From Haloarchaeobius iranensis (GTDB taxonomy: Archaea; Halobacteriota; Halobacteria; Halobacteriales; Natrialbaceae), in contig NZ_FNIA01000019.1 in the NCBI RefSeq assembly GCF_900103505.1, positions 1 to 63,081 of the forward strand: a stretch of DNA of 63,081 nucleotides, given 5' to 3'. How positions within the stretch are numbered: position 1 is the first letter of the stretch; the number at the start of each line of letters is the position of its first letter. Below are positions 45,950 through 50,106 of the stretch, piece after piece. The notes beneath the pieces were generated by a model that was not told where the DNA came from, searched no databases, and saw only the letters and a program-made list of their open reading frames with translations. The translations under genes and the position numbers were made by a program.

Positions 45950-48010
45950 TCAGACGAGCGGGTTGAAGAAATCACTCTCCGGACGCCAGTAGACGTGCCC
46001 GTCGTATATCGGGACCAGGTTCTCCGTCTCGATGAGTCTCGTGAGTTCCGGCCCCGAGACCGTGAGCTCGAACGGCTTCGCACACAGCTGTGGTGGCCGG
46101 TCGACGTGTTCCGGCCGCCATATGAAACCGGCCTCCGGGATGTAGGGGTAGAGGTTCAGTGCGAACCGGTTCGGACCGAGGGGCTCGACAGTCATCTGCG
46201 TACACCACAGCGACATGGTCCTGACGAGCTGCTGGAACCCGTCACCCACCGCGACCAGCGAGGCGTCGGTGTCCGTGTGCGCGACTGCGTATCTGACCGC
46301 CTGCTCGGCAGTGAACCCCCTGACGAGCAGTCCAGTGACGCACTCCCGGGTCTCCTCGGCGAGCAGGCTGTCCCCTTCGACCGCGAACCCGCCCATACTC
46401 CCCCGCTCGATACAGGCAGTCGTCGTGTCCGCGGTTCGGGCACCGTCCAGAAACACGAGCCGGATGTTCGAGTCCGGGAGGTCTTCCGGGGCGAGTCGTC
46501 CGTCGCGACAGTCGAACCCGTCGGTCACGTCGCCGACGAAGTGCAGGAAGTCGGCCCCACGTTCGAAGAGGTCGCTCAGTTCCGCCCGTGACAGTTCGGT
46601 GTGCTCGTGGATCGCCACGGTGTCGGGCGTGTACGTCCGGTACCGGTCGGCCAGTGCGGTCGCCTCGGCCCGGCGGGACGTGTCGTTGCAGGCCACCACG
46701 ACGGCATCCGCACCCTCGTCGCGGTCCAGGTACCGCGGCGCGCTCGTGAAGGTCCTGGGGCAGGCGACGAACGGCCTGGCGTCCGGTCTGGGTGCGTCGG
46801 CGAGCCAGACCACGGCACTCCCGTGACAGGACGCTTCGAGCAGCCTGTCGGGCACGGTATCGTGGAACTCGGCTGGAATCGAGGCGGCCCCGCCGGTCGG
46901 GTAGGTGTCGGGGTCGAAGACGGCTGAGAGGTAGCGCATGAGGCCGGGGAGCGCCTTCGCGTTCTCGAACGTCGGCTCGACGTAGCTCACGGTGTGCCAC
47001 TCCGGCAACGTCGAACTGACGCGATCGAACGGCGCTGCCATGTAGGTCCGGAGACGCTCCGGGAGACTGGCCTCCAGAAGCCGGTCCTCGTCCAGTCCGA
47101 GCGCTTCGATCACGTGCCGCTCGCGCAGGGACTCGTCCCCCTCCGTTCCGTTCCAGAGGACGTTGTCGAGCAGGTAGACGCGTCTGAGCAGTGCCATCGC
47201 CTCGTACTGGAACCGCGGCGGTCCATCGAACCGGTACTCGAAGCTCCCGTCCGTAGCCGCCAGTACCGGGGAACCGTCGTGGACAGTGACGCTCGCACCG
47301 AGGTAGTACGCCAGTGGTGCGCTCTGGAAGAGGAGGTCTCGCCGGTCCGGGATTTTGAGGACGAAGTCCGAATCTGGGACGAGTTCACGCACTGCGTCCG
47401 GAATGTCCAGCGTCTCGCCGAACTCGATGGCTGGCGGGTGCTGCCGGCCGTCGGTGGTCGAGCGCATCGGGCTGGTGGTCTTCAGCGCTGCTGGGAACTG
47501 CGACATCGCCGTTGCCAGTCCCTCGTTCGTCCGGGGGACCGTGACCGTGTGGCGCGGATACCGCAGCATGCTCGCGAACCCGATGGAGACGGGGCTCGGC
47601 TGGTCGAACGAGAGCACGATGTCGTCGGACTCGGTCCGCTCGACAGTCGCGGGGCCGGCGAACCTGACGACGGTCTGGACCGGTGTGTCGACACCCAGTT
47701 CGAACTGGCCACTGTCCAAGACGCAGCTATCACAGATATCGACCTGCTCTACGGACTCACCCTCCGCCTCGTCCAGTCGAGTCAGCGTCGGATACTGCGC
47801 CTGTACCGACAGCTCGGAGACCCGTCCACCGACGACCGCGTCCTGCTGTGTTCGCAAGCCGAGCCGTGGATCGATTTCGTCCCACCCGGTCGTCTCGACG
47901 TCCACCGCGTTGTCCATCCGGTCGACCGCGTGGATGGTTCCGTCGGCGATCTCGACGGTCACCAGCTCGACATCGTCGGTCGACGATCCGGCGACCGGCT
48001 GCTCGCTCAC
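45950..48010 (-). CDS. Haloarchaeal CHAT-family protein with substituted catalytic residues
   Basis: 686 aa. The C-terminal part follows the CHAT (caspase-like) layout of haloarchaeal proteins: FLHFVGD..., FDCRDGRLAPEDL, LVFLDGA, GSMGGFAVEGD and a final region with AVGDGFQQL. Active relatives read HxxGHC and LNAC; here Asp494 replaces the His and Ala524 the Cys, so protease activity is unlikely. The N-terminal about 380 residues match the family body (SFDQPSPVSIGF, HPPAIEFGETLDIPDAVRE, LAYYLGASVTV). A GTG at 48010 overlaps the preceding kinase stop (GTGA) when the kinase frame is restored. Probably a signalling partner of that kinase. Confidence 0.72.
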   Translation of the reverse strand: MSEQPVAGSSTDDVELVTVEIADGTIHAVDRMDNAVDVETTGWDEIDPRLGLRTQQDAVVGGRVSELSVQAQYPTLTRLDEAEGESVEQVDICDSCVLDSGQFELGVDTPVQTVVRFAGPATVERTESDDIVLSFDQPSPVSIGFASMLRYPRHTVTVPRTNEGLATAMSQFPAALKTTSPMRSTTDGRQHPPAIEFGETLDIPDAVRELVPDSDFVLKIPDRRDLLFQSAPLAYYLGASVTVHDGSPVLAATDGSFEYRFDGPPRFQYEAMALLRRVYLLDNVLWNGTEGDESLRERHVIEALGLDEDRLLEASLPERLRTYMAAPFDRVSSTLPEWHTVSYVEPTFENAKALPGLMRYLSAVFDPDTYPTGGAASIPAEFHDTVPDRLLEASCHGSAVVWLADAPRPDARPFVACPRTFTSAPRYLDRDEGADAVVVACNDTSRRAEATALADRYRTYTPDTVAIHEHTELSRAELSDLFERGADFLHFVGDVTDGFDCRDGRLAPEDLPDSNIRLVFLDGARTADTTTACIERGSMGGFAVEGDSLLAEETRECVTGLLVRGFTAEQAVRYAVAHTDTDASLVAVGDGFQQLVRTMSLWCTQMTVEPLGPNRFALNLYPYIPEAGFIWRPEHVDRPPQLCAKPFELTVSGPELTRLIETENLVPIYDGHVYWRPESDFFNPLV

Positions 48011-48180
48011 GGGTCGCTCACCTCGCTCCCGTCGGTCGGCACGGCTTCGTTCACCGGGTCGCCTCGCGCTTCGTCGCCGCGGACCTCGAACTCGAACCGT
48101 GCGCCGCCGGCCTCGTTTTCGGTCAGCGAGACGGTCCAGCCGTGTCCCTCCGTGACCTCCCGGACGATGGCGAGTCCGAC
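48007..48180 (-). pseudogene. C-terminal part of the sensor histidine kinase, out of frame after a one-base deletion
   Basis: In this frame the strand encodes VGLAIVREVTEGHGWTVSLT ... EFEVRG and ends SEVSDP at TGA 48007-48009. This is the G2-box end of a HATPase domain and belongs to the kinase upstream. The DNA reads ACCGCGTCGG where ACCGGCGTCGG would keep the frame, so one G is missing near 48181-48186. The stop overlaps the CHAT gene GTG by 4 bases. Confidence 0.75.
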
Positions 48181-49976
48181 GCGGTCCCACCCGAGCCACC
48201 TGCAGTGGTCATCCCCATCTCGAAGATGTCATCCGCTATCGAGGCCGGAACCCCGGGGCCGTCGTCGGCGACGTAGAAGCCGCTCCCGTCCGCGAGCGTG
48301 TCGACCGTGACCGTCACGTCGCCGCCGCCGTGCTCTACGGCGTTCCGGAACAGGTTCTCGAACACCTGCTGGACGCGTTCGGGGTCACCCTCGACACGCG
48401 GCAGGGCACCGGCTCCGAGCCGAGCATCCTCGGTGTCGACGGTCTCCCAGGCGTCTTGGGCGGCAGTCTCGAGGTCGAGTGGCTCGACCGACCCGATGCT
48501 GTCTCCATGTCGGGCAAGCGTCAGCAGGTCGTCTATCATGGAGAGCATCCTGTCGTGTTCCTCCTCGACGATGTCGAGGTGCGACCCGTCGCCGCTCTCG
48601 CGTGCCAGTTCCAGGTAGCCCATCGCGGAGGAGAGCGGGTTCCTGAGGTCGTGACTGACCATCGACGCGAACGTGTCCAGCTGTTCGTTCTGTCGTTCGA
48701 GGGCCTGCTCGCGCTCGACGAGTTCCCCGATGTCGGTGTAGATGATGTAGCCCATCCTGGAGCCGTCCTCGCTGGAGACAGGAACGCTCCGGAGCAGGAA
48801 CGGAGCCGTTCCCTCCGTCGTTCGGCGCTCGACCTCCCTGTCCGTGTGCTCCCCGTCCATGATCGCGTCGTACAGTTCGACGGCCTCCGAACGCTGGTCC
48901 GTCGGGACGAGCAGGTCGAGCGTGCGCTCACCGACTGCTACTGACGGCTCGTAGCCGAAGTGTCGCACGAACGCGGAGTTCACAGCGTCGATACGCGGCG
49001 TCCCGTCCTCGAAGACGTACCTCACGGCCGGGTCGGGGACGTTCTGGAACAGTTCCGTCGCCCTGTCCCGCTCCTTCGTGAGTTCCCGCTCGTACCGAAC
49101 TCGGCCGTAGGCGTGAGCGACATGGGCGACCAGGAGCTCACCGAAGTCGAGGTCACGCTGGTCGTAGGCGCCGACGCGCTCGGAGAGCAGCTGGAACACC
49201 CCGATATCGCCGAGTGGAAGCGAGAGTACCGACCGGTACGGGAGGCAACCGCCGGCGGCAACGGCTGATTCAGCAACGTCTCCCGTCAGGACGGGCTCTC
49301 CGGTCCGATACGTCTCACCTGCGATACCCTCGTCGAGCCGGAGCCGAGACCGCCCCGGTGTCGGAGCCGCCGCCGTCGCGGCCAACGGGGTGAACTCGTC
49401 GTTTCGTGCCTCGGCGACGACGCAGGCATCGAACTGGAACAGCTCTGATGCCCCCTCGACCGCGAGCTCGCTCACCGACCACTCGGTCCGCCGTTCGTCG
49501 AGAGCGGACGCGACCTCGTGGAGTCGTTGGACGTCATCGTCGATGGTCGATTGCGTGTCAGCCTCCGTGGACTCGCTACTCGTTGCTGTGCTCCCACCGA
49601 GTTCGGTGTCGACCATCTGACGCAGGATTCGCTGCCACTGGTCGGGTTCGGAGTCAGTCCGAACGGCCACCGTCGCTCCGGCTTCGAGAACGGTAGCCGC
49701 CGATTCCGGCCCATCGACGAGCACGATGACCGGGAGCTCGGGATACCGGATTCGGACCGTCTCGACCGTCTGGACGATATCGTGGACACGGGGCTGGGCA
49801 CAGACAAGCCCGCGGAACTCACCTTGTCGAAGCCGTGCGAGGACCGCCGTCGCGTCCAGTCTGGTCTCGTTCGGGACTCGGACGACGGGGGCGCCTGCAC
49901 CAGCCAGAATATCCGCGACAACACCGGCTGTCTCCCGTGGCGGTATCGCGAGCACGGGAGTCTGGCTATCTGACAT
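48123..49976 (-). CDS. GAF/PAS sensor histidine kinase, frameshifted near the C-terminus
   Basis: 617 aa as written. The N-terminal receiver-like domain (about 1-125) lacks the phosphorylated Asp. A GAF domain follows (about 165-300), then PAS (about 310-430). HisKA has the H-box MVSHDLRNPLSSAMGYLEL, the N-box NLFRNAVEHGGG and the G1 box YVADDGPGVP. After GGSGGT the frame is lost: ASDSPSSG replaces the G2 box and the protein stops at 48123. Restoring one base gives about 656 aa with a complete ATPase domain. The DNA could be a true mutation or a sequencing error. Start at ATG 49974-49976. A GTGA overlap with the CHAT gene suggests one operon. Confidence 0.82.
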   Translation of the reverse strand: MSDSQTPVLAIPPRETAGVVADILAGAGAPVVRVPNETRLDATAVLARLRQGEFRGLVCAQPRVHDIVQTVETVRIRYPELPVIVLVDGPESAATVLEAGATVAVRTDSEPDQWQRILRQMVDTELGGSTATSSESTEADTQSTIDDDVQRLHEVASALDERRTEWSVSELAVEGASELFQFDACVVAEARNDEFTPLAATAAAPTPGRSRLRLDEGIAGETYRTGEPVLTGDVAESAVAAGGCLPYRSVLSLPLGDIGVFQLLSERVGAYDQRDLDFGELLVAHVAHAYGRVRYERELTKERDRATELFQNVPDPAVRYVFEDGTPRIDAVNSAFVRHFGYEPSVAVGERTLDLLVPTDQRSEAVELYDAIMDGEHTDREVERRTTEGTAPFLLRSVPVSSEDGSRMGYIIYTDIGELVEREQALERQNEQLDTFASMVSHDLRNPLSSAMGYLELARESGDGSHLDIVEEEHDRMLSMIDDLLTLARHGDSIGSVEPLDLETAAQDAWETVDTEDARLGAGALPRVEGDPERVQQVFENLFRNAVEHGGGDVTVTVDTLADGSGFYVADDGPGVPASIADDIFEMGMTTAGGSGGTASDSPSSGRSRRDTAGPSR

Positions 49977-50106
49977 TTGTGCCAATTACCGTCACCTTGT
50001 TACGCTGTGACTATATCAGTTCGGGCCCGACACCCGTACTCAGAACGGGACGACCTGTTGTTACCGATTCAACCGGTACTGGGGCACGGGCTGGGCGTCG
50101 CGCGCC

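Follow-up and report, generated by a model that had tools for sequence, protein, structure and literature searches.

In the clan CD fold, the catalytic His lies after one strand and the catalytic Cys after the next, and CHAT proteases (PF12770; SAVED-CHAT, 8tl0, and TPR-CHAT Csx29) have both this fold and this His/Cys strand order, and are tied to CRISPR or SAVED sensors. Protease relatives that have lost catalysis and work by binding, such as cFLIP and iRhom, are eukaryotic and are not known to be encoded with sensor kinases; the archaeal clade considered below is similarly composed of dead protease kin, but differs in being encoded beside a sensor kinase. The nearest precedent for that clade is provided by the bacterial pseudo-orthocaspases, likewise clan CD proteins that have lost the His-Cys dyad, are conserved and are presumed to be regulatory (PMC6426788). 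These belong to the p20 family, with Tyr/Ser replacements, and the survey describing them reports none in Archaea and makes no mention of histidine kinases in its main text (PMC6426788). Haloarchaea exhibit a caspase-like activity still without an assigned protein (PMC3615174), and a literature search found no description of haloarchaeal CHAT proteins or of kinase-linked pseudo-proteases. The present analysis defines an archaeal clade of clan CD pseudo-proteases tied to one clade of sensor kinases, and provides a concrete and testable protein pair.

The window analysed, a stretch of 63,081 nucleotides from Haloarchaeobius iranensis (Natrialbaceae, order Halobacteriales; contig NZ_FNIA01000019.1), contains one such pair. 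The initial annotation had described the product of 45950-48010 as carrying Asp494 and Ala524 at the catalytic positions, and its coordinates, strand and residue numbers proved correct. The relevant features are:

45950-48010 (-): pseudo-protease gene, 686 aa, dyad-less CHAT-like / clan CD
47570-47965 (-): N-terminal beta domain, residues 16-147 (secondary structure of the model; clade-specific conservation)
46976-47428 (-): alpha/beta subdomain, residues 195-345 (secondary structure, Foldseek)
46241-46705 (-): one-time catalytic (CHAT-like) subdomain, residues 436-590 (model and conservation)
46529-46531 (-): Asp494 codon, at the catalytic His position, directly after strand 486-492
46445-46447 (-): Asp522 codon (a position held by Asn in all 100 intact members and by Asp in 38/42 of the dyad-less ones)
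46439-46441 (-): Ala524 codon, at the catalytic Cys position, directly after strand 516-522
48007-49985 (-): partner kinase gene (GAF 171-292, PAS about 323-421, HisKA 436-494, HATPase_c)
48175-48195 (-): frameshift in the kinase G2 box, after the G1 box; relatives read GGTGFGLAIV, and the frame shifts between GGT and GLAIV

The pseudo-protease begins with a GTG at 48010 that overlaps the intended kinase stop by four bases (GTGA), and its N-terminal beta domain contains a clade-specific GWD motif (residues 42-44) and Arg63. Asp494 occurs in the context LHFVGD-VTDGF and Ala524 in VFLDGA-RTADT, while alignment with paralogues, among them two from the same genome at 28-30% identity, showed that these keep His and Cys at the equivalent positions, the aligned motifs being HYIGHC or HYIGHA with His at 494, and LNAC with Cys at 524. 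His490 and Cys501 fall at 46529-46543 and 46508-46510 (-), respectively, and neither corresponds to a catalytic residue.

The CHAT layout that had been claimed for the protein was upheld by the predicted fold, but not by profile matches. An AlphaFold2 model generated with 32 family sequences as input had a pLDDT of 87.7, and Foldseek comparison with the PDB matched it to gingipain RgpB (7.1e-5) and separase (2.4e-4), results that speak against the fold being other than CHAT, an outcome that the initial annotation had allowed for. For an intact paralogue from this genome, modelled at pLDDT 87.4, the matches were separase (2.8e-8) and the SAVED-CHAT filament (8tl0; 7.6e-8), together with gingipain and caspases. 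No Pfam or NCBIfam model, CHAT included, matched the pseudo-protease, and some intact paralogues scored only weakly below threshold against PF12770 (best E 0.02, 14.8 bits as against a cut-off of 24). Because of the Foldseek matches and the strand positions of residues 494 and 524, the family is regarded as CHAT-like by modelled fold, though under the Pfam threshold; it differs from the CHAT proteases in having other N-terminal domains, and its dyad-less clade is associated with a histidine kinase, where those have CRISPR or SAVED sensors. Separase (C50) and RgpB (C25) were the best structural matches for the pseudo-protease model, and the length of the alignments suggested that a tandem arrangement of two caspase-like subdomains, one non-catalytic and one catalytic, is shared with them, such that residues 195-345 would probably represent the non-catalytic subdomain seen in both enzymes. 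However, identity to these enzymes was only 11-13%, and the pseudo-protease has neither catalytic residues nor a securin- or cohesin-like context. Sequence searches of the PDB returned nothing for the pseudo-protease, and only coincidental coiled-coil matches plus a weak CHAT match for the family. An assignment to a known anti-phage defence system was not supported, as neither the pseudo-protease nor the kinase nor the intact paralogues matched any PADLOC family.

The extent of the replacement was established initially from neighbourhoods of ~13 kb in genomes of the same taxonomic family, which yielded 86 members with both catalytic residues and 37 without. The addition of further loci brought the protein family to 142 members, 100 with the dyad and 42 lacking it, and confirmed the claim that both residues had been replaced: His494 was present in all 100 intact members and in one of the 42 others, Cys524 in 100/100 and 0/42, and the two together in none of the 42. 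A tree constructed without the motif columns contained a single branch parting the dyad-less from the intact group. When rooted with out-of-order relatives as the outgroup (n = 4, three of which keep His-Cys), the tree placed the dyad-less proteins as one clade (support 100/100) that falls within the intact members, with the near-universal class-A paralogues as its sister group. Because of this nested position, and because three of the four outgroup proteins keep His-Cys, the absence of the dyad from this clade represents a loss. Every genome of the source's taxonomic family has at least one member of the protein family, the dyad-less genes being patchily distributed among genomes; two of the members added later come from another family of the order. 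Halovivax asiaticus and Natrononativus amylolyticus belong to the same group of genomes as the source. A relative from Halovivax asiaticus was found in genome contigs with an alignment as the query; a single-sequence search of genome contigs found nothing, the pseudo-protease being too divergent.

A relative from outside the order (L208, 4543-6606 (-)), in which Arg and Asp replace the dyad, has lost it independently. No kinase match was recorded in the 7.6 kb of sequence covered at this locus, on a contig that ends ~1 kb upstream, and therefore loss of the dyad does not in itself require a kinase.

The association with a sensor kinase was far more extensive than the single locus could indicate. 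A same-strand kinase of GAF-PAS-HisKA-HATPase architecture accompanied all 42 dyad-less members, 39 as direct neighbours and three through a tandem array, and this linkage has phylogenetically one origin, so that the 42 cases are not 42 independent events. In the initial set, the corresponding figure was 37/37 (34 direct, three via an array), as against 0/86 intact genes within ~5 kb on each side, using a profile derived from paired kinases that very different kinases could escape. When this was re-checked with the kinases as blastp queries, the counts were 33/33 for dyad-less loci and 0/80 for intact loci. Of the members added later, all five dyad-less genes had the kinase and 14 intact genes had none in flanks of 1.5 kb, the two members from the other family of the order being seen again with wider flanks; six intact members on named plasmids likewise gave no kinase match. 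The survey proposed in the initial annotation, of whether kinase-CHAT pairs commonly lack the dyad, thus returned an answer of 42/42, with a linked kinase at 0/100 intact genes in the flanking sequence covered. The intact haloarchaeal paralogues have the same domain layout and fold as the pseudo-protease, at about 28-30% identity, but differ in having the dyad throughout and no kinase neighbour. No neighbour besides the kinase was conserved across all of the dyad-less loci compared.

Two of the loci contain tandem arrays with a single kinase, one with three pseudo-proteases (L044, 5495-12431 (-)) and the other with two (L040, 5501-9677 (-)).

The order of the two genes was not fixed, the kinase being upstream in 27 cases and downstream in 10, a distribution requiring three switches on the tree. 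Patristic distances for kinase and pseudo-protease were strongly correlated (Mantel r 0.873; none of 9999 permutations exceeded 0.31), and the cross-genome pairings of paralogues agreed between the two trees in 56 of 56 cases, although some congruence would be expected of any two genes that share their inheritance. The persistence of the pairing through these switches, and over deep divergence, nevertheless suggests that the two genes depend on each other functionally.

All 34 distinct partner kinases contained GAF, HisKA and HATPase_c, with a PAS_4 score in 33, and they share an invariant HDLRNPL. In a comparison with the 20 closest unpaired kinases from the source's taxonomic family, the paired kinases grouped as a single clade (support 93), and none of the unpaired ones had a CHAT-like family member within ~4 kb. 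In the H. iranensis partner, GAF and PAS are present, and both HisKA (59.6 bits) and HATPase_c (44.3 bits) scored above their cut-offs. However, the reading frame as called (48123-49985) is frameshifted near its C-terminus, within the ATP-binding domain, at a point where relatives are open; a second frame continues to the TGA at 48007-48009 that overlaps the GTG of the pseudo-protease. The coupling to a sensor kinase that had been proposed for this locus is borne out by the same-strand kinase of 42/42 dyad-less members, but is qualified by the frameshift in the source assembly. The sequence is compatible both with a sequencing or assembly error and with a real mutation, and the gene pair in the window might be non-functional or wrongly sequenced.

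Mean column entropy in the dyad-less clade, relative to that of the intact group, was 1.52 for the one-time catalytic subdomain, as against 0.99, 1.08 and 1.04 for the three remaining regions, so that constraint in the dyad-less clade is clearly relaxed only in the first of these. Between close relatives, dN/dS values were 0.15-0.42 for the pseudo-proteases, 0.20-0.41 for the kinases and 0.07-0.17 for the intact paralogues; the pseudo-protease is under selection, but apparently not for catalysis. A pseudogene reading was set aside on the basis of these ratios and of clade-wide conservation. The fold is thus retained and purifying selection maintained without the catalytic residues, and the designation as a pseudo-protease in the initial annotation is supported by the alignment, the fold, the rooted tree and the confinement of relaxed constraint to the catalytic subdomain. 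Positions conserved only in the dyad-less clade (e.g. Gly42-Trp43-Asp44, Arg63, Pro138, Arg277, Asp522, Trp631, Tyr683 and Pro684) are candidate interaction sites.

It is proposed, with a probability of roughly two in three (0.68), that the two genes form a dedicated module in which a dead clan CD protease serves as the partner or output of a kinase. On this view, a CHAT-like (clan CD) protease that is near-universal in haloarchaea was duplicated, and one copy lost its His-Cys dyad, once, and was committed as a non-catalytic partner to a single clade of GAF-PAS histidine kinases; the two genes would constitute a self-contained signalling module. The kinase would sense a signal via GAF/PAS, and its state would be conveyed to the pseudo-protease through physical interaction, by binding and/or phosphotransfer. 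The pseudo-protease, presumably no longer proteolytic, would then function as an adaptor or output rather than as a peptidase, by means of the N-terminal beta domain and the caspase-like surfaces that it has kept. Of the original interpretation, the pseudo-protease and its kinase coupling were substantiated, and the binding or scaffolding role is one that we too infer. Throughout the cases examined, the pseudo-protease is encoded next to a sensor kinase of its own and the two have evolved in concert, which suggests a former protease that is now a signalling partner. The pair shows a protease fold recruited beside two-component-type signalling. A bolder version, put forward only tentatively and rather doubtful, is a hitherto undescribed archaeal signalling architecture in which the output reserved for a histidine kinase would be a dead caspase-fold protein in place of a response regulator, and in which the old active site might have become an acidic pocket that accepts phosphate or binds a ligand. 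As an explanation in its own right, rebuilding of the old active site as such a pocket served by the kinase is very improbable: the change from Asn522, invariant in intact members, to Asp is nearly fixed (38/42), position 494 is acidic (Asp/Glu) in 27/42, and the kinase is the sole neighbour conserved across the dyad-less loci compared, but Arg, Pro, Ser, Thr or Asn occupies position 494 in about a third of the clade, no conserved Lys or acidic pair of the receiver-domain type was seen, and response regulators were only insignificant Foldseek matches.

The pseudo-protease might alternatively act mainly on the intact paralogues, as a substrate competitor or inactive dimer partner whose level is set by the kinase, for which cFLIP and its action on caspase-8 provide a model. 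Although the presence of at least one family member in every genome of the source's taxonomic family, the two intact paralogues of the source genome, the sister relationship to the widespread class-A gene and the continued constraint on the non-catalytic domains would all accommodate such a role, it is considered unlikely, the dyad-less genes being linked to kinases and not to intact paralogue genes, and an identity of about 30% making direct mimicry less likely. Continued hydrolase activity with another nucleophile, for example Cys501 with His490, each present in 39 of the 42 dyad-less proteins, has little to commend it: both residues are invariant (100/100) in the intact group beside a normal dyad, and are more simply explained as structural, 6/42 of the clade lack one of them, and constraint is relaxed throughout the subdomain. 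A relocated H490/C501 dyad was rejected on the same grounds, being equally conserved in intact members and hence not clade-specific, and no conserved His-Cys substitute was found elsewhere in the sequence, the initial annotation having named an intact dyad elsewhere as contrary to its reading. Finally, the frameshifted kinase of H. iranensis and the patchy distribution among genomes might indicate a decaying gene pair devoid of present function, but this is scarcely credible given that other partner kinases align across the conserved H, N and G boxes, that dN/dS between close pairs is 0.15-0.42 for both genes, and that the linkage outlived deep divergence.

The intact sister proteins occur widely across Halobacteriales, most of them labelled hypothetical, and are candidate sources of the caspase-like activity that still lacks an assigned protein in haloarchaea (PMC3615174). 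The RefSeq entries for a member of the dyad-less clade and its neighbour in Natrononativus amylolyticus read 'hypothetical protein' beside 'ATP-binding protein'. The class A intact gene, one such candidate, lies between glyA (SHMT) and tbsP, as seen at L033 (5182-7239 (-)) and at some 48 related loci, L060 among them. Class B intact members lie directly behind HalOD1 and/or DUF7504 proteins (L105, L116, L127 and the plasmid loci L198 and L199), a position that suggests a further link between this protease family and signalling. Three intact members with identical active-site motifs are arranged in tandem in one genome of the order (L214, 5072-12306 (+)).
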